From: Phycisphaeraceae bacterium
GTDB taxonomy: Bacteria > Planctomycetota > Phycisphaerae > Phycisphaerales > UBA1924
Reading direction: 5' to 3'
Length of the DNA stretch: 64,000 nt
NCBI GenBank assembly: GCA_019636845.1
Contig: JAHBWV010000001.1
Coordinates: 2,108,001 to 2,172,000 of the forward strand
In this document: one piece after another, positions 45,953-58,210 of the stretch
How the letters are laid out: every line of letters begins with the position of its first letter
How positions within the stretch are numbered: position 1 is the stretch's first letter
Program-made: the position numbers and the translations under genes
The notes under the pieces: model-generated
Seen by the model: only the letters and a program-made list of their open reading frames with translations
The model's database searches: none
Told to the model about the DNA's origin: nothing

Positions 45953-47947
45953 TCAGTTCAAGACGAACGCAGCGATGACGGCGTCGAGGATGCCCATGAG
46001 GGCGGCTCCGGCGATCACGCCCGCGCAGATCGGCTCGTGATTCTCGACCCAGATGGACTTGGGTGCGTTCGGGTCTTTCGGCTTCCTGCCGACGCCGAGG
46101 AACCAGAAGATGATCGCGCCGAGCGACATCGCGAAGATGTACTCGAAGCTGATCACGAATGCGAGCCCCAGGGCGACGGGTGAGAGCGGGAACTTGCCCT
46201 TGGAAAAGATGCGCCCGAGTTCGAGCGTGAGCCCGACGATGGAGCCGACAATGGCGGCCCAGAGCACGCTCACGGGGAGCGAGCCGATTCCCTGCGTAAG
46301 GGCCTCGGCGACGGCCTTCCAGATTGTGGCTGCGGGCATGGGGAACGCGTCGCTCTGGATGTTGGCGATCGTGGCGGCGGTCGTTTCGGCGGTTGAGGTG
46401 TCAACGGCCTTGTTGCCACGGACGAAGAGGATGAAGAAGAGCGGGACGCTCGCGACCGATCCGGCGATGATGCCGATGACGTGGCCGATGGCTTGCTGGC
46501 GCGGCTTCGCACCGAGCATGTAGCCGGGTTTGATGTCCATCAGCAGATTGGAGGCGTTCGAGACGACCTCTGCCGTAAGACTTGCCGTTGCGAGGTTGGT
46601 CTGGATGTTGCCCTTGTCGACGATCCCGTAGAAGAGCTGCGTGACCTTGCTGGTCGCGCCGACGGGCGTGGTGCCCGTGAGGGCGGTCGAACTCGCGGCG
46701 ACGAGCGCGAGGATGAAGGCGAGCGGAAGCCCAACCAGGCAGACCCACCACTTCACACCGAAGAAGTACTGGGCCATGAAAGCGGCGATGATGCTGATGA
46801 TCGGAACGCCAACGATCGAGATCCAGAGTGGAAGCTCGATGTGTCGGAGGACGTCGTTTCCGGCTTTTTTCTTTCCTGTCAGGGCGGAGAAGGCCGCGAT
46901 GAAGGCCTGGGGCTTCGCGAAAAGCGCGGTGAACGAAGCGAAGACCATGCATGCGACGCCGGGCCAGAGTGCCCAGGTGGTAATAGTGCGGAAGTTGTAG
47001 ACGCTCGCGCCGGTCTCAGCGATGATGCGGGCGGGGGGAATCTCGCCCATGTTGATCATAATCGGAGCGAGAATCGCGTAGTTGATCAGACCGCCGATGA
47101 GCAGCGACATCCCGGCCTTGATACCCATCAGTCCACCGGCACCGATCAAGGCAAACTCGAGCGTGGGATTGAGGGTGAGCTGGCGCAGATCGACGCCGCC
47201 GATCGAGGGTGCGGCACCGAAGACCTTTGTCCATCCCGCAGCGATGAGATCGCCGAGTTGCTCGGGGAAGGTGATGACATCAGACTTGAGTTTCATCAGG
47301 CGATGCTGGATCCATTCCTGGATGGCGTGGGCCTGGATGAACTTCAGGAACGCGGCGATGGCGGCGGTGACGACGAGTATGCGGGCCTTGACCATGCCTG
47401 AGGAGGCCTCGGCGGAGTGGAGGGCGTCGAGAACGACGCCGCAGGCGCGGCCTTCGGGGAAGGGGTGCTGCTCGTCGTTGATGAAACGCCGCTTCATTGG
47501 GAAGGCGAAGAGGACGCCGAGGATGGAGACGACGATGTTCCACGCCATCATCTGCCACCAGGGGATGATGTGCTCGCTAACGATCATGTAGGCCACGAGC
47601 GAGGAGATCAGCGGCGCGGTCATATAGCCGGCGCTTGTCGCGATTGACTGGACGCAGTTGTTCTCAAGGATCGTGAACTCTTTGGCGAGCCCGGTTCTCT
47701 GGAGAACCCTGAAGAAGGCGAAGGAGAGGATGACCGAGGTGATACCGACGCCGAGCGACCAGCCGGTCTTGGCTCCGACGTAGAGGTTCGTGGCGGAGAG
47801 GATGCCGCCGAGCATGAAGCCCATCAACGCGGAGCGGATGGTGAGCTGGGGCATGTTGCCGCGGAAGACGTTCTCAAGCCACCAGCGGTCCTTCTGCTCA
47901 AGGGACCAGTCACGAATCTGTTCGTCGCTGAGTTGCTTCATTGCCAT
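45953..47947 (-). CDS. OPT-family oligopeptide transporter
   Basis: A 664-residue transporter with about 15 hydrophobic segments, fitting the prokaryotic OPT branch. Recognisable regions include YVGAKTGWSLG, ILENNCVQSIATSAGYM, HPFPEGRACGVVLDA and GHVIGIIAGSVASVPLFF, which are conserved in bacterial OPT proteins. OPT carriers move oligopeptides or metal chelates with protons; the actual substrate cannot be read here. The N-terminus MAMKQLSDEQI is cytoplasmic. Its promoter-like sequence lies only nine bases before the ATG. Confidence 0.92.
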   Translation of the reverse strand: MAMKQLSDEQIRDWSLEQKDRWWLENVFRGNMPQLTIRSALMGFMLGGILSATNLYVGAKTGWSLGVGITSVILSFAFFRVLQRTGLAKEFTILENNCVQSIATSAGYMTAPLISSLVAYMIVSEHIIPWWQMMAWNIVVSILGVLFAFPMKRRFINDEQHPFPEGRACGVVLDALHSAEASSGMVKARILVVTAAIAAFLKFIQAHAIQEWIQHRLMKLKSDVITFPEQLGDLIAAGWTKVFGAAPSIGGVDLRQLTLNPTLEFALIGAGGLMGIKAGMSLLIGGLINYAILAPIMINMGEIPPARIIAETGASVYNFRTITTWALWPGVACMVFASFTALFAKPQAFIAAFSALTGKKKAGNDVLRHIELPLWISIVGVPIISIIAAFMAQYFFGVKWWVCLVGLPLAFILALVAASSTALTGTTPVGATSKVTQLFYGIVDKGNIQTNLATASLTAEVVSNASNLLMDIKPGYMLGAKPRQQAIGHVIGIIAGSVASVPLFFILFVRGNKAVDTSTAETTAATIANIQSDAFPMPAATIWKAVAEALTQGIGSLPVSVLWAAIVGSIVGLTLELGRIFSKGKFPLSPVALGLAFVISFEYIFAMSLGAIIFWFLGVGRKPKDPNAPKSIWVENHEPICAGVIAGAALMGILDAVIAAFVLN

Positions 47948-48085: not shown

Positions 48086-49756
48086 ATGACCGATCGCTTC
48101 ACCATGCTCGACTGGCTCGGCCTCGCCGGGTATGCGGCCCTCCTGATCGGGACCGGGTGGTGGTTCTCTCGGAAGAAGCAGCGGTCGAGTTCCGACTACT
48201 TCCTTGCGGGGCGGTCGATGCCGGCATGGGCCGTAGCGGTCTCCACGGCGGCGACGGCCATCTCCGCGGCGACCTTTGTCGGTGTGCCGGAGATGGCATA
48301 CGCGGGAGACCTCACGTACCTGGCCGCGAACATCGGGGCGATCCTGGCGATTCTCGTCGTCGCGTTCGTCTTTGTACCCGCCTTCTACCGGGCGAATGTG
48401 ACGACGGTCTATGGGTTGCTCGAACAGCGACTCGGGCCCGGGGCGAGAACGGCCGCGTCGATCGCGTTTCTTGTCGGGCGAGTGTTCTCATCGGGGGCGC
48501 GGCTCTACATCGCGGCGATCCCTGCGGCCATGATCATCTGGGGCGACTCGCCAGATTCAGCGAATCTGTCGCATCTCTTGGTGTCGATCGGAGCACTTAC
48601 CGCAGTCGGGATTGTCTACACCTTGATCGGGGGCGTGCGATCGGTCATCTGGACTGATATCGCACAAACCGTCGTCTTTGTGACAGCGGCGGGGATCGTG
48701 GTCGCCATCCTGCTCACGCGGATCGATGCCTCAATCCCAGAGATCTGGCGCACGCTCGGCGAGCAGACGACCTCACGCGATACGCACAAGACAACCATCA
48801 TCTCCACCTCAGGTGAACCTGCGGCGGCGTACACGCTTTGGGCGTCGGTCATCGGGATGACACTCCTGTACCTGGCGGCATACGGCACCGACCATGACAT
48901 GGCGCAGCGGATGCTCACGTGCAAGACACCCGCGTCGGGCGGGCGTTCGGCGATTACGGCAGTGATCCTGCAGGTGCCGCTGATCGCGCTCTTTCTTGGT
49001 ATTGGTTCGTTGCTCTGGATCTTCCACCACCGGCCCGACATGCTTGTCGAAGGCGTACGGGACGAGACGGGTGGCGCGGGGCCTCCTGCGGGAAGCCGCG
49101 TCTTCATCAGGTTTATTGTGGATCACGGCCCTGCGGGCCTCTCTGGGCTGACGATCGCTGGTTTGTACGCCGCGGCACTCTCGACGTTGAACTCGGGGTT
49201 GAACGCGATGGGGGCCTCGTTGTACGCGGATCTGTACCTGCCGCTCCGGAAGCGGCTGGGCAAACCGGACGCTTCGCCGAAGAGCGAGGTGCGGACGGGC
49301 CGGTTCTTCGTGATGGTCGCGGGGGTCTTGGTCGGGTGCTTCGCCTGCTTCTGCGTGTGGTGGCAGCGAACGGGGGGCTTGCTACTCATCGACCTCGCTC
49401 TGAGTGTGATGACCTTTGCCTACGCGGGACTTCTGGCCGTCTTCCTCACGGCGATCCTCACCAGACGCGGAAACTCCGCGTCTGCACTGGCGGCGATCCT
49501 CACTGGGTTTATCGTGGTGGCGGCTCTGCAGCCAGCGTGGATCGGAGCTTGGACGGCATTGATCCCCGGGCACGGGCCTACACCGGAGATCGCCGACGAC
49601 TGGCGACTCGGCGAACTCAGACTCGCCTTTCCCTGGCAATTGACGATCGGATTCGCCGCCTCGTTTGTGGTCTGCATAAGCGGGAAGAGACGGAGCACGC
49701 GGCAGTTGGGCAACCCGCGTGAGGGCAGCTCCCCAACTACCGTTCCATCGAACTGA
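48086..49756 (+). CDS. sodium:solute symporter (SSS family)
   Basis: A 556-residue transporter with about 13 membrane segments. The N-terminus SSDYFLAGRSMPAWAVAVST is characteristic of the SSS family, as are IGGVRSVIWTDIAQTVVF (TM6 region) and LSGLTIAGLYAAALSTLNSG. It heads a plus-strand run with anmK 14 bases downstream, so a cell-wall sugar such as anhydro-MurNAc or MurNAc is a plausible substrate; this is inference from context. Confidence 0.9.
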   Translation: MTDRFTMLDWLGLAGYAALLIGTGWWFSRKKQRSSSDYFLAGRSMPAWAVAVSTAATAISAATFVGVPEMAYAGDLTYLAANIGAILAILVVAFVFVPAFYRANVTTVYGLLEQRLGPGARTAASIAFLVGRVFSSGARLYIAAIPAAMIIWGDSPDSANLSHLLVSIGALTAVGIVYTLIGGVRSVIWTDIAQTVVFVTAAGIVVAILLTRIDASIPEIWRTLGEQTTSRDTHKTTIISTSGEPAAAYTLWASVIGMTLLYLAAYGTDHDMAQRMLTCKTPASGGRSAITAVILQVPLIALFLGIGSLLWIFHHRPDMLVEGVRDETGGAGPPAGSRVFIRFIVDHGPAGLSGLTIAGLYAAALSTLNSGLNAMGASLYADLYLPLRKRLGKPDASPKSEVRTGRFFVMVAGVLVGCFACFCVWWQRTGGLLLIDLALSVMTFAYAGLLAVFLTAILTRRGNSASALAAILTGFIVVAALQPAWIGAWTALIPGHGPTPEIADDWRLGELRLAFPWQLTIGFAASFVVCISGKRRSTRQLGNPREGSSPTTVPSN

Positions 49757-49770
49757 GGGAGCACGCGAGC

Positions 49771-50859
49771 ATGGAGCGTCGTCTGGTCGTTGGGTGCATG
49801 ACGGGTACGAGCATCGATGGGATCGATGCCGCACTCGTCGCGATCGAGGGGCGAGGCCTCGACCTGCGGGCGTTCATTGTCCGTGGGATCTCTCGGCCGC
49901 TGGGCGATCTTGCGAGGGGTCTTCGCGATGCGGCCGAGCAGCGCCCTCTCTCTGCGTCGCGATTCACCGAACTGGCACAGGGGCTGGCGGCGGCTCACGT
50001 TCGTGCGATCACCGAGTTGCTGAGCGGTGACAAGTGTGACCTGATCGCGGTACACGGCCAGACGGTGTTCCACGCGCCGCCGCTCTCGTGGCAGATGATC
50101 AACCCAACGCCGATAGCTCACACCTTCGGCGTGCCCGTGGTCTTCGACCTGCGTGCGGCGGACCTTGCAAGCGGCGGGCAGGGCGCGCCGATCACGCCTC
50201 TTTCGGATGCGATCCTGCTGCGCGAGTTCCCCACTTCGGCGGCGGTCGTAAACCTGGGAGGTTTCTGCAACGTAACGACCGGCGTCGGAGCTGGCGGGGT
50301 ACAGATCGGGCGGATCGGGGGGCGGGATGTGTGCGCGTGCAACCACATTCTCGATGCGATTGCTCGAGCGACGATGGACAAGGCGTACGACGAGGGTGGG
50401 ATGGGCGCGCTCTCCGGAACGATCGATCCCGAAGCCCTCGACGGGCTCCTTGCGATCCTCAGCGAGCAATCCATGGCCGGGCGTTCATTGGGCACTGGCG
50501 ATGAGGTGATGGGGTGGATCGAATCGCACCGCCATCGGGTGCGGGCTCCGGACATGGCTGCGACCGCGTGCGCAGCGATAGGGAGGGCTGTCGCGGAATC
50601 CGTCAGAGGCGCGGGGACGGTGCTGCTGGCCGGAGGCGGCGCCAAGAACATGGCACTGGTTCGAGCGATCCGTCTGGCGGCGGTGCCTTCCACCGTCAGG
50701 TTCGCGGACGAGCTCGGAATTTCGAGCACTTATCGCGAACCGCTGGCAATCGCGGTGCTTGGTGCGCTCTGCCAGGATCGGGTTCCCATCACACTGCCCC
50801 AGGTGACTGGGTGTGGCTCGGTGCCGCCCCCAATCTCGGGATGCTGGGTGCTGCCATGA
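49771..50859 (+). CDS. anmK: anhydro-N-acetylmuramic acid kinase
   Basis: Opens the 1,6-anhydro ring of anhydro-MurNAc and phosphorylates it to MurNAc-6-phosphate, a step of peptidoglycan recycling. 362 residues, usual length. Motifs: GTSIDGIDAALV at the N-terminus, AVHGQTVFH, FDLRAADLASGGQGAP with the catalytic Asp, VVNLGGFCNVT, and a C-terminal GGGAKN. Its TGA overlaps the murQ ATG (ATGA), and the gene order symporter-anmK-murQ supports the role. Confidence 0.96.
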   Translation: MERRLVVGCMTGTSIDGIDAALVAIEGRGLDLRAFIVRGISRPLGDLARGLRDAAEQRPLSASRFTELAQGLAAAHVRAITELLSGDKCDLIAVHGQTVFHAPPLSWQMINPTPIAHTFGVPVVFDLRAADLASGGQGAPITPLSDAILLREFPTSAAVVNLGGFCNVTTGVGAGGVQIGRIGGRDVCACNHILDAIARATMDKAYDEGGMGALSGTIDPEALDGLLAILSEQSMAGRSLGTGDEVMGWIESHRHRVRAPDMAATACAAIGRAVAESVRGAGTVLLAGGGAKNMALVRAIRLAAVPSTVRFADELGISSTYREPLAIAVLGALCQDRVPITLPQVTGCGSVPPPISGCWVLP

Positions 50860-51794
50860 GCGATGCTCGCCTCCCTCCGGACCGATCCTGGGTATCGACG
50901 GAGCAACGAAACCCGGGCTCGATGTCGCTGCACACGCTCTCCATCGCCGGGTGCGTGGATCTGATCACGGAGGAGGACCGGCGCGTCCACGAGGCGATGG
51001 CAAGGGCAAAGCCGGCGTTGGCTGCGCTCATCTCGGACATCGTGCCACGCTTTCTGCGAGGAGGGCGGCTGATCTACGTGGGAGCGGGCACATCGGGACG
51101 GCTCGGCGTCTTGGATGCCTCTGAGGCACCGCCAACCTTTCAGATCGATGCGGGGCGGATCGTCGGGATCATCGCCGGAGGGGACGGAGCGTTACGAAAG
51201 TCGTCTGAAGGTGCGGAAGACGACACCAACGGGGCACGGGACACGCTGGTATCGCTCGGGCTGACTGAGAACGATTCGGTCATCGGGCTCGCGGCGGGAG
51301 GCACGACGCCATATGTGCTTGGAGCGATTAGACTTGCGAAACACGCAGCACCCGGATCGCTCGCCGCACTCATCACCTGTTCCGAAGTTCCAAAGCCGGC
51401 GGGCGCGGACCACCTGATCGTGCTGGAGACTGGAGCTGAGGTGCTGACCGGCTCGACGCGGATGAAAGCGGGAACGGCGACAAAGCTGGCGTTGAACACC
51501 ATATCGACCACGGTGATGATCCAGTCGGGCAAGGTCTACGAGAATCTCATGGTGGACCTTCGGGCTTCCAACGACAAGTTGCGCGACCGGGCGGCACGGA
51601 TCGTCTCGACCCTGACCGGGGTCGATCGTCAGGGCGCGATCACGCTACTCGACCTGGCGCGGGGCTCGGCCAAGGTTGCGGTTGTGATGGGCCGATTGGG
51701 GGTGGATTCGGTCGCTGCGGAAGCCATGCTCAGTGCAGCGGGGGAGCGGCTTGACGTTGTGTTGTCCGAGGCCCCGCCGATCCGATCAAGGTAG
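50856..51794 (+). CDS. murQ: N-acetylmuramic acid 6-phosphate etherase
   Basis: Cleaves the lactyl ether of MurNAc-6-phosphate to GlcNAc-6-phosphate and D-lactate. 312 residues. SIS-domain features: TEQRNPGSMSLHTL, GRLIYVGAGTSGRLGVLDASE, GLAAGGTTPYVLGA and the late TGSTRMKAGTATKLALN. The ATG at 50856 overlaps the anmK stop. NagA/NagB, needed for the next steps, are not in the window. Confidence 0.97.
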   Translation: MSDARLPPDRSWVSTEQRNPGSMSLHTLSIAGCVDLITEEDRRVHEAMARAKPALAALISDIVPRFLRGGRLIYVGAGTSGRLGVLDASEAPPTFQIDAGRIVGIIAGGDGALRKSSEGAEDDTNGARDTLVSLGLTENDSVIGLAAGGTTPYVLGAIRLAKHAAPGSLAALITCSEVPKPAGADHLIVLETGAEVLTGSTRMKAGTATKLALNTISTTVMIQSGKVYENLMVDLRASNDKLRDRAARIVSTLTGVDRQGAITLLDLARGSAKVAVVMGRLGVDSVAAEAMLSAAGERLDVVLSEAPPIRSR

Positions 51795-51847
51795 GTGTCG
51801 ATCGTGGTATCCGGCGAACCGATTCTTCGCACTCTGGAGCGTGGTGC

Positions 51848-52300
51848 ATGGTCAAACGACGTCATTCTCCGAGCGTCGTGACGGCGATGGTGGCGTTGCT
51901 CGCGGCACCGCTCGCGTCGGCATTGGTCGTCTTCGCGCAGCCCTCGGCCGAGCGCGGCTCGAGAGTGATCGAGGCCAAGCGAGCGCCAAGGCCCGCGGTG
52001 ATCAACCATATCGTGCTGATCACGTTGCGGGACACGTCGGACGCTGAGGCGCTGATCGCGGACTCTGATCGCCTTCTGGCGACCATTCCCTCTGTGGTCT
52101 CGTATTTCTGCGGCACGCATCTGGACACGGGACGCTCCTCGGTGGACGGGTCGTACGACGTGGGGCTGTACGTTGGGTTCGATTCGGCTGAGGGGTATAT
52201 GGCGTACGTCGAGCACGAGGGACACGTGGAACTTGTGAAGTCATGGGCTCCGCGAATCGAGTCGATGAGGATCTTCGACGTTGTTGATCCAACGCCGTGA
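51848..52300 (+). CDS. secreted Dabb-domain protein
   Basis: A 150-residue protein with a signal peptide (VVTAMVALLAAPLASALVVFA). Residues ~50-145 match a stress-responsive A/B-barrel (Dabb) domain: INHIVLITLRDTSDAEALI, TIPSVVSYFCGTHL, YDVGLYVGFDSAEGYMAYVE and HVELVKSW. Dabb domains form dimers, some bind small ligands, and most have no known reaction. It sits between murQ and the dehydrogenase-like gene on the same strand. Confidence 0.85.
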   Translation: MVKRRHSPSVVTAMVALLAAPLASALVVFAQPSAERGSRVIEAKRAPRPAVINHIVLITLRDTSDAEALIADSDRLLATIPSVVSYFCGTHLDTGRSSVDGSYDVGLYVGFDSAEGYMAYVEHEGHVELVKSWAPRIESMRIFDVVDPTP

Positions 52301-52340
52301 TCGGTGCCGGGACCTCGCGGCACGCGGAGAAGAGACTCGC

Positions 52341-53381
52341 ATGCGACGTGTTCTGCAAGTCGGTGTCGGCCCCTTGGGCCGGATGATCGTTGAGGCGCTG
52401 CACCGCTCGGGTGTCGGCGTTGTTGCGGGCGCGATCGATCCGGACCCTGCGATCCGTGGGAAGCGACTCTCTGATCTGGTGCATGATCATGGGGCGATCG
52501 ATCCGGTCGTTGTCGGGTCGATTGACGAGCTCGCCCTGGATGAGGGGTTCCATGCTGCCATCGTCTCGACCTCATCGTCGCTGGCGGCCTGTGCGCCGAC
52601 TTTCAGGCAGTTGCTCGGGTTTGGCACCGCGATCGTCAGCACGTGCGAGGAGTTGCTCTTTCCGTGGCTGAGGCACCGCGATCTGGCGGCAGAGCTCGAC
52701 GCTCTGGCGAGAGAAACCGGCGGCAGACTGCTCGGGACTGGTGTCAATCCCGGGTTCCTCATGGACACGCTGCCGGTTGTGGCGAGCGCGGTATGCACTG
52801 ATGTCCGCGGCGCGGTGATCGAGCGAGTACAGGACGCGACCACGCGAAGGGTGCCGTTCCAGAAGAAGATCGGAGCCGGGCTTACGCCTCAGGAGTTCGC
52901 GAAGCGGTGCGCGGATGGTTCGTTGCGCCACGTCGGGCTCGGCGAATCTCTGCACTTCGTAGCTCACTACCTCGGAGTGAGAATCGATGCGTGGACCGAG
53001 TCAATCGAGCCCGTGATCGCGGGGGCTGAGCTCGAATGTGGACTGGGACAGATCCTGCCGGGGCAAGCCGCCGGAGTCCAACAAATCGCGCGGGGCATGC
53101 TGAACGGTCGCGACATCATCCGTCTTGAGTTCGTCGCAGCCATCGGCCAGCCGGACCCGCACGATCGAATCCGGATCGATGCGGATCCGCCGATCGACCT
53201 GGTGCTTCGCGGGGGTGTCCACGGCGACCTGGCAACGACGAATATCGTGATCAACTCGCTTCCGTGCATCATCGACGCCCCACCCGGACTGCACACGATG
53301 GCGACGGTACGGCCGGTGCGGGCGATCTCTGCCACAACACCGTTGCCGGGTTCGCGTCTGGCTCACCATATCCTTTCCTGA
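52341..53381 (+). CDS. DapB-like NAD(P)-binding dehydrogenase (2,4-diaminopentanoate dehydrogenase-like)
   Basis: A 346-residue protein with a Rossmann N-terminus (VLQVGVGPLGRMIVEAL). The region LGTGVNPGFLMD and the length agree with the group that contains 2,4-diaminopentanoate dehydrogenase and relatives of dihydrodipicolinate reductase. The C-terminal half is the dimerisation/substrate domain. It lies 38 bases upstream of a PLP enzyme and downstream of murQ. A reaction on an amino-acid-like substrate is likely; the substrate is unknown. Confidence 0.78.
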   Translation: MRRVLQVGVGPLGRMIVEALHRSGVGVVAGAIDPDPAIRGKRLSDLVHDHGAIDPVVVGSIDELALDEGFHAAIVSTSSSLAACAPTFRQLLGFGTAIVSTCEELLFPWLRHRDLAAELDALARETGGRLLGTGVNPGFLMDTLPVVASAVCTDVRGAVIERVQDATTRRVPFQKKIGAGLTPQEFAKRCADGSLRHVGLGESLHFVAHYLGVRIDAWTESIEPVIAGAELECGLGQILPGQAAGVQQIARGMLNGRDIIRLEFVAAIGQPDPHDRIRIDADPPIDLVLRGGVHGDLATTNIVINSLPCIIDAPPGLHTMATVRPVRAISATTPLPGSRLAHHILS

Positions 53382-53419
53382 GTTCGCACCCATCGACCGA
53401 GAGATCTGGAAGACCACGG

Positions 53420-54637
53420 ATGCCGCGACTACCGATCGATTGCTCAACCGCCACGGGTGCCACCATGCAGGGCCGAACCATGCTCGCCTTCGCCGGCTGC
53501 AACTATCTCGGGCTCGCCAACGACCCGCGTGTGCTCCAGGCGGTACGGACGGGCCTCGATCGGTACGGCCTCTCGACGACGGCCTCACGCGAAACGACGG
53601 GGAACACCACGGCCTTTGACGACCTTGAGACCGCGCTCTCCCAGTTTCTGAGCACCGAACGCTCGCTCCTTCTCGCGGATGGGTACACAGCCAACATCGC
53701 GATGGCGCAGGCGCTGGCCACCAGATTCCGCACGGTGCTGATCGATGCCAAGAGCCACCATTCGGTGCATGATGCCGCACGAAGCGCAGGTCTGGTTGTG
53801 GTCACGTTCCCGCACGGGGACACCGAGGCCGCGGCGTTACTCGCCAGGCGACACGCTGACGCCGACCCTTCTGGCGCGGTGGCAATCCTGACAGACGGAG
53901 TGTTCACAAGCGATGGTGCGATCGCAAAGCTACCGGCTTTGCTCGCGGCGTTGCCGAACGAGCGTTCGCTGCTGGTCGTGGACGATTGCCACGGTGTGTG
54001 CGTGCTGGGGCCGGAAGGGCGCGGCACTGTTTCGCACTACGAGCTTACCGACCCCCGGATCATCATCACGACAACGCTGGCGAAGGGGCTCGGCTCATAC
54101 GGCGGGTGCATCGCCGGACCGGCGTGGTTCGTGGAACTGGCGCGCAGCGCGTCGGGGATCTACAGGTGCTCGACGCCGATCCCGCCCGCTATCGCCATGG
54201 CGGCGCACGAGGCCCTGCGCATCGTGCTGGCAGAGCCCGAGAGGATCGAGCGGCTCAGATCGAATACCGCCCGGCTCCGCGGCGCATTTGAAGCGATCGG
54301 GCTCCCGTTGAGGGCGGATCATGGCAGCGCGCTGATCCCGATCTTTGCGTTCGTGCTCGACACACATGAGCGGATGGAGAGCGTGCATCGCTCGATGCTT
54401 GACGAGGGCGTCCTCGCACCGTTCATCCGCTACCCGAACGGCCCCGCAGAGATGTTCTTCCGCATCGTCGTCAACGCGGCCCACACCGCCGACCAGATCG
54501 ACCGTCTGGCAGACGCCTTCGCTAGACGGCTGCCCGCGATGGGGCTGACGGGCTCTCGTGGGGATGGGACACGCCTATCTGGCGGGACGGATCTCAAGTC
54601 TCCATCGGGTGGCCCGCGTGTCGAGGGCGTTGCCTGA
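53420..54637 (+). CDS. alpha-oxoamine synthase-family PLP enzyme (BioF/Kbl-like), substrate unknown
   Basis: A 405-residue fold-type I PLP enzyme. Family marks: SRETTGNTTAFDDLE near residue 55, ADGYTANIAMAQAL, DAKSHHSVHDAA, the cofactor Asp/His loop DDCHGVCVLGPEGRG and the Schiff-base Lys in TTTLAKGLGSYGGCIAG. These enzymes normally condense an amino acid with an acyl-CoA (BioF, Kbl, HemA, Spt). The conserved His before DLE is Phe here. A ~30-residue Gly/Ser-rich tail reaches 63 bases into the convergent lipoprotein gene. Confidence 0.86.
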   Translation: MPRLPIDCSTATGATMQGRTMLAFAGCNYLGLANDPRVLQAVRTGLDRYGLSTTASRETTGNTTAFDDLETALSQFLSTERSLLLADGYTANIAMAQALATRFRTVLIDAKSHHSVHDAARSAGLVVVTFPHGDTEAAALLARRHADADPSGAVAILTDGVFTSDGAIAKLPALLAALPNERSLLVVDDCHGVCVLGPEGRGTVSHYELTDPRIIITTTLAKGLGSYGGCIAGPAWFVELARSASGIYRCSTPIPPAIAMAAHEALRIVLAEPERIERLRSNTARLRGAFEAIGLPLRADHGSALIPIFAFVLDTHERMESVHRSMLDEGVLAPFIRYPNGPAEMFFRIVVNAAHTADQIDRLADAFARRLPAMGLTGSRGDGTRLSGGTDLKSPSGGPRVEGVA

Positions 54638-55036
54638 CATGAAAACCTGTGACCGGGCCGGCATGCGCATGTAGCGCCATTCGCCTTCCTCCTGCACCGG
54701 CACCTGCTGATCGTTCAACCAGAAGAAGCGGTACTGCACGTTGAGTTCCGCTCCGTTTGTCAGCGCGCGGACCGGCACCTGGACGGCGAGGGGCTCGCCG
54801 GGCGTGCGGGTCTCGACCGGCGCGGAGACGCCGATATAGGGCTGAAGCCCTTCGAGCGCGACCACCGAGGGGTAGTTCTCTATCAGCACCGGATCGGCCA
54901 TCGCGCCGGGCGGCGGCTTGTCCGATGTCTTGCAGGACGCGAGTGAGAGTGCAGCGACAGAGATGGCTCCGAGCGCGATCGCCCTGATCGAGCGGCGCAC
55001 CGGGGCTTCGAGGTCGTTCGTTGAATGAGTGTGCAT
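54575..55036 (-). CDS. YcfL-like (DUF1425) lipoprotein
   Basis: A 153-residue lipoprotein: signal IALGAISVAALSLASC with the lipobox Cys near residue 35. The domain resembles DUF1425/YcfL (LNVQYRFFWLNDQQVPV and a C-terminal WRYMRMPARSQVFMSG). YcfL is encoded next to LpoB in enterobacteria, and an LpoB-like gene lies in the same run here. AAAGGAG is eight bases before the ATG. The 3' end overlaps the PLP-enzyme gene on the other strand. Confidence 0.82.
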   Translation of the reverse strand: MHTHSTNDLEAPVRRSIRAIALGAISVAALSLASCKTSDKPPPGAMADPVLIENYPSVVALEGLQPYIGVSAPVETRTPGEPLAVQVPVRALTNGAELNVQYRFFWLNDQQVPVQEEGEWRYMRMPARSQVFMSGNALDTRATRWRLEIRPAR

Positions 55037-55088
55037 GGCGTGTACTCCTTTGATGATCGTGCGACTCACTGCGGAATTATGCTTGATG

Positions 55089-56801
55089 TCAAGGCGTTGT
55101 ACCCTGATTCCTGATTGTGGCGGCGAGGTCTCGGACCTCGCGCGACCGTGGGGTGTATGGCGGATGCTCCTGGCCGAAGAGACGGGCAAAGCCAGCGGTG
55201 CCTGCCTGCGGACATGCCAGGGAGCGTCCGCCTTCGAGGATGTGGACGCCGACACGCTCGAGCTCATCGTCGGGATCGACAACGATCCCCTCGGCGCGAT
55301 ACAACTCCAGCAGGTCGGCGAGCGTGATCCCGAGCAGCCGTCCATTGGCGTGGTATCTCGCCATGGTCTCGTGCGTGGGCACTCGCACGCATCGTCCCCC
55401 GAGGATGAACGGCAGATCGTCGCCGGGCACGTCTCCCGGCCACGCATCATTGCCGTAACGGATCTCACCGGAGACCATCCATGCGAGCGGTGTTGAGACT
55501 GTGGGCAGTCGCACGTAACGGATCTGAAGCCGCTCTGTGCGGGTTCGATCGGGCGGGCGAAGCCCCGCGAGAGCAAGCTCGGACTGGCCGAGATCGCCGA
55601 CGCGAACCCGCACCGTCGCGCCCTCTTCCGGGAGTTGGAGGGGCACAATGTACGTTCGCTGGGGCAGAGACTCAAGATGGCGGAGATCCGCTCCGGCGGA
55701 TGCCTTCATAAGAGCGCCGAGGGCCGCAGCGGAGATACCGATGATCTGTGCGGTCCCACTGTCATCATCGACACCGGCCGCCACGATCACGCCGCCGAGG
55801 AGCAGCGCGGTGCCGAGCGTGCTCTTCGCGCGGCGCGCGTCTTCGAGGTTGTTCCACATATGGTCGGCAGCCATGCGGTTGAGATCGGATGCCTGCGCGA
55901 TCCGCCGCTCGCCGATCGCGTCGCCAGAGACATGGAGGGGCCTATCGTCGCTGCGCGTGCGCGGCTGGAACTTTGCGAGTGCGCCGTCCGGTCCGTACGC
56001 GACCTTTGATGGACCCCGCCCGGCATCGACGATCAGCACCGTGTCGGCTCGGCCGCTCGTGATCTCGTCGAAGGTGGGGGTAAGGTCGGGACGGATCTCC
56101 GCGGCTCTTCGGAAGTGATCCGACGCCTCTTCTGTCCGCCCAAGCGCGTGTGCCGCGATGCCCAGCAACGCGTGTCCGAGCGCGAAGTCGGTAGCGCCGG
56201 CGACGTAGCCGTTATCGAAGTACTCGTCACCGCGGTCGCCCCTCGCCGCGGCGCGCTGCGCAATCTCGAGCGTCGAGAGGCGTTCGCCCTTCTCGTTCAC
56301 ACCGAAGTCGCGGAGCAGAAACAGCGAGCTCTCCGCGGCGGCCCGCATGTTCCCCCAATCACCGATCGAGCCCTTCTGGATCGCAACGTAGGCGTACGCC
56401 ATCGCCTGCTCGAACGGTTCGCCCTTCCAGATCCGTACGCCCTCGTGCAGCACGACGCTCGGCACGGTCTTGTCGGCGTTCAGCCCCTGGATGCGGAGCA
56501 CCTCGTAGACGCGATTGGCGAGCGACTCGGCGTGGCGTGGGAGGCCATCGGCGAGCGTGACCATCAAGAGCCGCTCTCGATCGAGCAGGTGTTGCTTGTC
56601 CGAGAGTCTCGGAGAGGCCGCGGCGTTCCGGTTGTAGAGATATCCCCGTGCTCGGGCGAACTCGCCCCGATCGACCCGCGTCGCGTAAGACTCGTCCACT
56701 CGGTTCCCGGCACACCCCGAGAGAAGCAACAGGATGACGGCCACACACGCGACCGCACGGCCCGAGTCGGCTCTGGTTGCTCTGGGCACTCGGCGGCGCA
56801 T
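55089..56801 (-). CDS. COG3014-like lipoprotein with TPR-type helices
   Basis: A 570-residue lipoprotein (signal AVACVAVILLLLSGC, lipobox Cys near 30). The first ~240 residues are helical and TPR-like (LLDRERLLMVTLADGL, ALLGIAAHALGRTEEASDHF, then RRAAEIRPDL). A glycine-rich membrane-like helix (GTALLLGGVIVAAGV) follows, then a beta-rich C-terminus. This matches proteins annotated COG3014, found beside LpoB and YcfL homologues in some Gram-negatives. The precise role is unknown; a link to penicillin-binding-protein activation is inferred from context. Confidence 0.8.
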   Translation of the reverse strand: MRRRVPRATRADSGRAVACVAVILLLLSGCAGNRVDESYATRVDRGEFARARGYLYNRNAAASPRLSDKQHLLDRERLLMVTLADGLPRHAESLANRVYEVLRIQGLNADKTVPSVVLHEGVRIWKGEPFEQAMAYAYVAIQKGSIGDWGNMRAAAESSLFLLRDFGVNEKGERLSTLEIAQRAAARGDRGDEYFDNGYVAGATDFALGHALLGIAAHALGRTEEASDHFRRAAEIRPDLTPTFDEITSGRADTVLIVDAGRGPSKVAYGPDGALAKFQPRTRSDDRPLHVSGDAIGERRIAQASDLNRMAADHMWNNLEDARRAKSTLGTALLLGGVIVAAGVDDDSGTAQIIGISAAALGALMKASAGADLRHLESLPQRTYIVPLQLPEEGATVRVRVGDLGQSELALAGLRPPDRTRTERLQIRYVRLPTVSTPLAWMVSGEIRYGNDAWPGDVPGDDLPFILGGRCVRVPTHETMARYHANGRLLGITLADLLELYRAEGIVVDPDDELERVGVHILEGGRSLACPQAGTAGFARLFGQEHPPYTPRSREVRDLAATIRNQGTTP

Positions 56802-56814
56802 CTGGCGGTTCCTG

Positions 56815-57393
56815 TCAGTCGTACGTGAGGCCGACGGCCGCACGCTTGAGTTCGAACGAGTCCGACCACTCGATGCGGCCGGTTTCGAGGTCGATCACGC
56901 GAGTCTCGAACGAGTAGAGATCCGTGCGGTGGACGCCCGCGGCCCGCGTCACGCTCCGGAGCACGCCTCGCATGGCGTGAGTTGGCGTGCGGCCTGCACC
57001 GGCAAGAGCGGCTTCCGCACCGACACGATCTCGCAACTGGTTCAGGTGCTCGACCGGGATCACAAACCCGATATTGCGCTGTGCCCCGAGCGACGCGAGA
57101 GGCGTGGAGGCGCGGACGCGCTCCATGAGGTACCACTGCTCCGACAGAGGGACAACGTCTGAGGAGAGATTCTCCACGCGATCAAAGGCAACCACCATTC
57201 GGAGAGATTGTGGGTTGCGATCGCGGAGGAAGTCGCTTGCAGCCATGCTTGCCGCCAACTGCACTGCCATCTCCTTGACGTCCTCCGTTGTGAGACGCGT
57301 GGAGCGTTGCTGCACCGTCGCGCATCCCATCGGAAGCCCCGCGCAGGCGCACAGGATGGCCATGGCCTTCAACTGGAGCACTCGGGCTTGCAT
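56815..57393 (-). CDS. lipoprotein of the LpoB-type cluster
   Basis: A 192-residue lipoprotein with signal AMAILCACAGLPMGC and the lipobox Cys. The mature part shows the pattern of LpoB-like and CsgG-like folds: TTEDVKEMAVQLAASMAASDFL, VVAFDRVENLSSDVV and a terminal DLETGRIEWSDSFELKR. It lies 13 bases upstream of the COG3014-like gene and 29 bases after the LpoB-like gene, so all four lipoproteins probably form one operon. The start at 57393 is chosen for the signal peptide. Confidence 0.75.
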   Translation of the reverse strand: MQARVLQLKAMAILCACAGLPMGCATVQQRSTRLTTEDVKEMAVQLAASMAASDFLRDRNPQSLRMVVAFDRVENLSSDVVPLSEQWYLMERVRASTPLASLGAQRNIGFVIPVEHLNQLRDRVGAEAALAGAGRTPTHAMRGVLRSVTRAAGVHRTDLYSFETRVIDLETGRIEWSDSFELKRAAVGLTYD

Positions 57394-57422
57394 CGACGCT
57401 CTCTCCAAGAACGTGCCGGGGT

Positions 57423-58031
57423 TCAGCTGCCCCACCGCTTGCTCTCGTAGTCCTTGGTCCACACGATCTCGCCGCTGGAGAAACTTACGAGTTGGAAGGT
57501 CATCAGATAGAGCGAGGTGTCGCCGCGTGAGACGCGGTACATCGTGCCGTTGAGGAAGTACGTAGAGGCCTGGTCGATGCGATCACCCACTGCAGCTCCC
57601 GCTGGCCCGGTCTCCATCGCCCGAAGTTCTTCGAGTTGGGCTTTGGAGATGAGGAAGCGGAAGTTATGGCGAAAGGTCTGGGACTGCATCAGGCGGTTCT
57701 TCATCTTCTCGCGCACAAGCTCGAACTCGGCGGAGGAGATGTTGACGGTCTTGTTCATGATGTCGCCGTACACAATGGTCGAGCGAACACCCTGGTTGAA
57801 TGCCGGAACTGTCGGAAGATCGGCGACGAGGGCGCTCGCCAACTGGTCCGCGAATTCCATGTAGTCTGCGGGAAGGACACGTACATCCCTGGCTTCGGCG
57901 GGGGTAGACTGCCCGACATCGACGCGCCCGGACGGCGTGCCGCGTGGCGGATTGTTCGACGCACACCCTGAGAGCGTGAGCAGCATGCCGAGCATGCCTG
58001 TTGTGATCGAGACTCTGGATCTGGCAGCCAT
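57423..58031 (-). CDS. LpoB-like penicillin-binding-protein activator lipoprotein
   Basis: A 202-residue lipoprotein (signal TTGMLGMLLTLSGC, lipobox Cys near 23). The mature domain matches LpoB: YMEFADQLASALVADL, STIVYGDIMNKTVNISS, RLMQSQTFRHNFRFL, DQASTYFLNGTMYRVSR and a C-terminal SGEIVWTKDYESKR. In E. coli LpoB stimulates the bifunctional penicillin-binding protein PBP1b from the outer membrane. GGAG lies about seven bases before the ATG at 58031. Confidence 0.88.
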   Translation of the reverse strand: MAARSRVSITTGMLGMLLTLSGCASNNPPRGTPSGRVDVGQSTPAEARDVRVLPADYMEFADQLASALVADLPTVPAFNQGVRSTIVYGDIMNKTVNISSAEFELVREKMKNRLMQSQTFRHNFRFLISKAQLEELRAMETGPAGAAVGDRIDQASTYFLNGTMYRVSRGDTSLYLMTFQLVSFSSGEIVWTKDYESKRWGS

Positions 58032-58210
58032 GGTGATCTCCGGTCTGTTGTTAGCACCTACTAAATGATACGGACAAGCCATCAGAAAGTTTCTCATTCG
58101 GTCTGTCGCTTGCCCAAGCCGACCGAGAGTGGCATGATGCACAGAACCGAGTCCGAACCGACCACGAAGAGTACTCGACAGCGGCAGCCAGCGGGGTGAG
58201 TCTTACGCGT

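Follow-up and report, generated by a model that had tools for sequence, protein, structure and literature searches.

The window analysed here is a 64,000-nucleotide stretch of a Phycisphaeraceae genome (3.67 Mb, 95% complete; contig JAHBWV010000001.1), and its positions 48086-54637 carry a run of genes for cell-wall sugar salvage, a dehydrogenase and a BioF-like enzyme. There are six genes on the same strand, nearly contiguous, and as the first-pass annotation had described, all their open reading frames are open at the place given and their families match:

48086..49756, plus strand: sodium:solute symporter (SSS), probable importer of (anhydro-)N-acetylmuramic acid (MurNAc); PF00474, 132 bits
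49771..50859, plus strand: anmK, anhydro-MurNAc kinase, the sole copy in the genome; PF03702, 177 bits
50856..51794, plus strand: murQ, MurNAc-6-phosphate etherase; TIGR00274, 305 bits against a cut-off of 302
51848..52300, plus strand: Dabb-domain protein with an N-terminal hydrophobic leader, predicted to be exported or membrane-anchored; PF07876, 58 bits
52341..53381, plus strand: PF19328 dehydrogenase (107 bits), by residues and fold a native amine dehydrogenase of type G1
53420..54637, plus strand: pyridoxal-phosphate (PLP) enzyme of the alpha-oxoamine-synthase family (BioF/Kbl-type); TIGR00858, 269 bits against a cut-off of 426

The intergenic gaps measure, in order, 14, -4 (an overlap), 53, 40 and 38 bases. 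Inside the run there is no sigma-70-like promoter match, which is weak evidence as the promoters of this lineage may differ, and terminator-like sites inside it are at chance level, again weak evidence. The first three genes form, by family membership, an ordinary set for (anhydro)MurNAc uptake and conversion, as had been proposed: the symporter would import the sugar, AnmK would phosphorylate anhydro-MurNAc, and MurQ would cleave the ether to give N-acetylglucosamine-6-phosphate and D-lactate. With a kinase and MurQ beside an importer, the run has the composition of a MurNAc salvage operon. In Tannerella forsythia, MurT, a member of the sodium symporter superfamily, neighbours murQ and murK (PMC5790795), and that operon likewise combines a sodium-symporter-type MurNAc importer, a sugar kinase and MurQ. 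However, the kinase of the window is AnmK, not MurK, and the run has further genes for the dehydrogenase, the synthase and the Dabb protein.

The dehydrogenase had been likened to 2,4-diaminopentanoate dehydrogenase (Ord, group G2), an identity that is rejected because the enzyme scores 195 bits on the equivalog model NF040740 (cut-off 400) and carries Arg-Gln-Arg-Arg in place of Arg-Asn-Phe-Gly in the active site. Its residues E103, R162, Q164, A166, R169 and R170 correspond to positions 102, 161, 163, 165, 168 and 169 of AmDH4, which itself has E/R/N/L/F/G there. The E/R/Q/A/R/R pattern is invariant in 99 loci and is found in all 122 aligned non-reference sequences, except that eight distant relatives have Val or Ile at 163. 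In the study that describes the groups, G1 is defined by an Arg at both P9 and P12, the latter being Phe in G2 (PMC11164908). P9, P10 and P12 are provisionally placed at AmDH4 161, 163 and 168 by way of the MATOUAmDH2 pocket residues L169, Y171 and Y176. The catalytic Glu at P3 and the two Arg of G1 are accordingly E103, R162 and R169, all invariant, and the Phe at P12 that marks Ord is replaced by Arg in all 99 loci and all 122 non-reference sequences. Of the two candidates for P15 (His in G1), AmDH4 H197 is retained and H264 is replaced by Phe. The predicted structure (pLDDT 91) has the amine dehydrogenase fold, with native amine dehydrogenases as the best matches (7xdu, Z 41.0, root-mean-square deviation 1.9, 331 aligned; 6g1m, Z 40.3, deviation 1.7, 328 aligned), while DapB and meso-diaminopimelate dehydrogenase reach Z 17-18 and BioU Z 17. 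Judged by its aligned residues, the window dehydrogenase matches the G1 amine dehydrogenases. It has the fold, the catalytic Glu, the Arg at P9 and PF19328 in common with both G1 enzymes and 2,4-diaminopentanoate dehydrogenase, and shares the Arg at P12 with G1, unlike true Ord enzymes, which have Asn, Phe and Gly at 163, 168 and 169. Among the window neighbours there are no ornithine fermentation genes (oraSE, ortAB). A distant G1 subgroup has Val at AmDH4 163 (L137, L139, L140, also L136, L141, L143). In L137, L139 and L140 the gene follows a pyrroline-5-carboxylate (P5C)-dehydrogenase-like aldehyde dehydrogenase, as read from sequence, which hints at a different glutamate chemistry, and L141 and L143 have PBP4-like and aspartokinase matches nearby.

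Gene order was compared at 80 dehydrogenase-bearing loci taken from bacterial genomes and in a family sample of 100 evenly drawn genomes of the window's family. Reading frames at the loci were called by composition scoring, and AT-rich loci, where the composition caller loses genes, were re-called by length. The family sample holds the dehydrogenase in 34 genomes, the synthase (E 1e-60 or better) in 46 and anmK in 65 (63 above cut-off). In 11 of the 34, belonging to 8 genera, murQ lies within ~4 kb of the dehydrogenase; under independent placement the probability of this is ~4e-20, an order of magnitude only as relatedness is not corrected. The two closest relatives (L002, L003) hold the identical six genes in identical order, together with the OPT gene described below. 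Elsewhere murQ is found on either side of the dehydrogenase in two arrangements, namely GH20-anmK-murQ-dehydrogenase-synthase (L013, L021, L024, L025, L089-L092) and dehydrogenase followed by murQ (L006, L007, L011, L016, L093-L097). Similarly, murQ lies within ~4 kb of the synthase in 11 of 46 genomes, 5 of which lack the dehydrogenase (L084-L088). Linkage with murQ/anmK in relatives, which the first-pass annotation had made the test of its proposal, is thus conserved far above chance. The loci in which the dehydrogenase is followed by murQ, from several genera, also share a divergent gene for a very large protein (~1,340-1,490 amino acids) with a kinase-like start.

The assignment of the last gene to the alpha-oxoamine synthase superfamily holds, as both the catalytic residues and the fold (match at Z 48) are present: K222 (PLP lysine), H113 (ring-stacking His), D188, H191 and R348 (carboxylate Arg) are invariant in 33 sequences. 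While the fold, the PLP lysine, the ring-stacking His and the carboxylate-binding Arg are common to BioF, Kbl, SPT and ALAS, the window synthase falls below every equivalog cut-off (BioF is the nearest model), its subfamily is marked by an SRETTGNT motif of its own, and its N-terminus is shorter than those of the nearest solved relatives. Biotin genes, as represented by bioB, are absent from the window genome and from all 46 synthase-bearing family genomes (bioA and bioD were not searched); bioB is present in 8 other family genomes. A role as BioF for biotin is rejected on this absence and on the TIGR00858 score, and Kbl is rejected because it is the other copy in the genome, at C1:233257, that resembles Kbl (415 bits, cut-off 460). 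The idea that the Glu of SRETTGNT indicates a cationic acyl group was dropped, since this residue is Val or Ala in three orthologues. In nine loci of the family the synthase, without the dehydrogenase, adjoins a divergent Opp-like peptide ABC transporter (L108, L109, L111, L114, L116-L118, L121, L122); there it is often followed by a HisN-like phosphatase, and the rpsB-tsf-SOD (superoxide dismutase) genes lie further upstream in several. In distant Planctomycetota (L147, L148, L150), where the synthase again occurs without the dehydrogenase, a gamma-glutamyltransferase gene lies ~3-4 kb from it on the opposite strand.

That the dehydrogenase and the synthase act on one compound, as originally suggested, is not borne out. 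Both genes occur in 18 family genomes, the dehydrogenase only in 16 and the synthase only in 28, so that co-occurrence is at chance among the 100 genomes (18 seen, 15.6 expected; Fisher p = 0.40), and an obligate pathway pair is rejected for lack of this signal. Since each also occurs alone, the two look like separable members of one salvage theme, neither depending on the other, and not like two steps on one compound. In principle they could work in series, the synthase making an alpha-aminoketone that the dehydrogenase aminates to a vicinal diamine, as with BioF and BioA/BioU, or both running the reverse breakdown. Of the 18 genomes with both genes, 14 have them side by side in one constant order, and BioU shares the dehydrogenase fold. 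However, besides the chance-level co-occurrence, other phyla commonly have the dehydrogenase but no synthase, the synthase accompanies murQ without the dehydrogenase in the five genomes named above, and bioB is missing wherever the family has the synthase, all of which makes a series improbable.

The contexts of the dehydrogenase in other phyla point towards the peptide part of the wall. The phylum sample of L067 (Bacteroidota/Balneolota; 296 genomes) gave 29 matches, and D-amino-acid or murein genes stand at 10 of the 13 Arg-Gln-Arg-Arg loci of these groups, the families seen being D-amino-acid transaminase, a D-aminoacylase-like amidohydrolase of PRK09061 type, NlpC/P60 peptidase, the muramoyl-alanine amidase family Amidase_2, PBP4 and Beta-lactamase2. 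PRK09061 is labelled only as an amidohydrolase in NCBIfam; its CDD name is 'D-glutamate deacylase'. L124-L126 share the order dehydrogenase, D-amino-acid transaminase (258 bits in L124, cut-off 277), peptidase (M20 in L124) and PRK09061-type amidohydrolase. In L129-L131 and L133-L135, SusC/SusD-like genes are joined by varying sets of NlpC/P60, Beta-lactamase2, Amidase_2, S13/PBP4 and aspartokinase, and L067 has an M14 carboxypeptidase with a PRK09061-type amidohydrolase. The D-amino-acid transaminase of L046 is above cut-off (324 against 277 bits). In Clostridia, where the class sample comprises three loci only, a PRK09061-type amidohydrolase, a transporter and the dehydrogenase stand in line (L079/L153). 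Gamma-glutamyltransferase occurs at L068, L071 and L080. Another lineage of planctomycetes has a true LysA (323 bits, cut-off 298) and a Beta-lactamase2 hydrolase after the dehydrogenase-synthase pair; LysA is a demonstrated enzyme of diaminopimelate breakdown in sea bacteria (PMC9602339). As a positive control, the single true G2 enzyme encountered, that of L152 (539 bits, cut-off 400), adjoins ortA, ortB and oraE; since it thus lies with its known pathway, gene context of this kind does report function in the family. The earlier idea that the run is linked to the stem peptide gains support from context in other phyla, while the specific substrate is predicted only.

Our leading, though tentative, reading is that the run salvages murein and that the dehydrogenase handles a D-amino acid of the stem peptide, D-glutamate being the best guess, with the synthase as a second, separable member of the theme. 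In an oxidative deamination with NAD(P)+, the dehydrogenase would turn an amino dicarboxylate of D configuration into the 2-oxo acid and ammonia, most plausibly D-glutamate to 2-oxoglutarate. In G2 enzymes the amine at C4 is three carbons from the carboxylate and the amine product is S, and the Arg that replaces the G2 Phe has been read as suggesting that a carboxylate takes the position of the methyl group (PMC11164908). A five-carbon dicarboxylate with its amine at that place would have the glutamate skeleton, and because a carboxylate for the methyl on the same face turns the 4S centre to R, stereochemistry would make it the D-form. D-Amino-acid transaminases use D-glutamate/2-oxoglutarate as amino carrier. 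As such transaminases neighbour the dehydrogenase in other bacteria, a D-glutamate dehydrogenase would close a cycle of D-transdeamination with them as partner, in which D-alanine and 2-oxoglutarate would give pyruvate and D-glutamate, and D-glutamate would then return to 2-oxoglutarate. BioF uses alanine, and alanine is a weak guess for the amino acid of the synthase, by elimination, as diaminopimelate is assigned to LysA and D-glutamate to the dehydrogenase. It is possible, if rather doubtful, that the R-x-Q-D-A-x-x-R-R G1 enzymes of several phyla are dedicated NAD(P)-dependent D-glutamate dehydrogenases working with D-amino-acid transaminase on murein D-amino acids. A literature search found no report related to a D-glutamate dehydrogenase of the PF19328 family. 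The DgcN-DgcA pathway also breaks down D-glutamate, partly from walls; it runs via an irreversible racemisation pathway, whereas a one-step NAD(P) dehydrogenase is proposed here (Yu et al., 2023, cited in PMC12363236).

The main alternative substrate is the D-centre of meso-diaminopimelate or another diaminopimelate/lysine derivative, which would feed LysA or de novo lysine/diaminopimelate synthesis. The known meso-diaminopimelate dehydrogenase (Ddh) is NADP-dependent, converts a murein amino acid at a D-centre and has a related Rossmann fold; such enzymes are among the fold matches, the LysA and synthase genes overlap at nine loci, and aspartokinase is near in L133-L135, L141 and L143. However, the C-terminal domain family of Ddh differs and the window enzyme fits amine dehydrogenases far better (Z 40-41, against 17-18 for Ddh). 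In AmDH4 substrates the reacting carbon and the carboxylate are spaced in a way that fits a five-carbon acid, and neighbours such as D-aminoacylase, gamma-glutamyltransferase and D-amino-acid transaminase suit glutamate better, so that we consider this alternative unlikely. The linkage itself could reflect inherited chromosomal position, neighbours being carried along in a block near rpsB-tsf-SOD, genes that are indeed seen at L017, L086, L088, L091, L101, L109, L119 and L122. However, different uptake or wall genes take the place of the partners at that site, namely SSS/GH20/anmK/murQ or an Opp-like peptide ABC transporter. The wall theme also reappears in Bacteroidota amid unrelated surroundings; position as the sole cause thus has little probability.

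Several observations weigh against D-glutamate salvage as proposed. The dehydrogenase is away from murQ in 23 of the 34 family genomes that hold it; most loci of delta, Ignavibacteria and Armatimonadota type have no murein gene nearby; many loci, among them L042-L045 and L047-L066, have neither murein nor D-amino-acid genes; the neighbour families were chosen after viewing the loci; and the window genome's candidate D-amino-acid transaminase is only sub-threshold. The Val-for-Gln G1 subgroup, 35-41% identical, adjoins a P5C-dehydrogenase-like aldehyde dehydrogenase and could point to L-glutamate. In the G1 study, members were inactive on the hypothesised substrates, a few being weakly active on 2,4-diaminopentanoate (2,4-DAP) (PMC11164908).

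The same study counts more than 1,000 G1 models, screened for biocatalysis, gives their ketone substrates as not known and reports no clear evidence from a NetSyn context search (PMC11164908). Against this background, the recurrence of murein and D-amino-acid neighbours in several phyla suggests a testable gene context for an orphan enzyme group that had been left without assigned substrate or context, and yields a short list of compounds for G1 enzymes. If D-glutamate is the substrate, one of the major D-amino acids in the bacterial debris of soil and sea would have an NAD(P) route of a single step, and the D-version of transdeamination would be complete. Should this extend to G1 as a whole, a widespread orphan group would gain a substrate and glutamate dehydrogenase a D-counterpart. 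For Planctomycetota, the run suggests that genes for sugar salvage and for peptide salvage lie together.

The Dabb gene also adjoins the dehydrogenase or the synthase in L002, L003, L009, L014, L017, L018, L103 and L116, and does so even without murQ in L009, L014, L017, L103 and L116. In L017 and L103 its product is a lipoprotein by lipobox. The run is flanked by the following genes:

45953..47947, minus strand: OPT-family oligopeptide transporter, divergent from the run; PF03169, 241 bits
54575-55036, minus strand: DUF1425 lipoprotein, convergent, sharing 63 bases with the 3' end of the synthase gene
55089-56843, minus strand: TPR protein, convergent, downstream of the run
56815-57462 and 57423-58142, minus strand: two LpoB-like proteins, convergent, downstream of the run

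The OPT gene lies 138 bases upstream of the run, and the convergent lipoprotein gene group just downstream spans 54575-58142. In Escherichia coli, LpoB is an activator of peptidoglycan synthase, and for this reason the run has a connection to the wall on either side.

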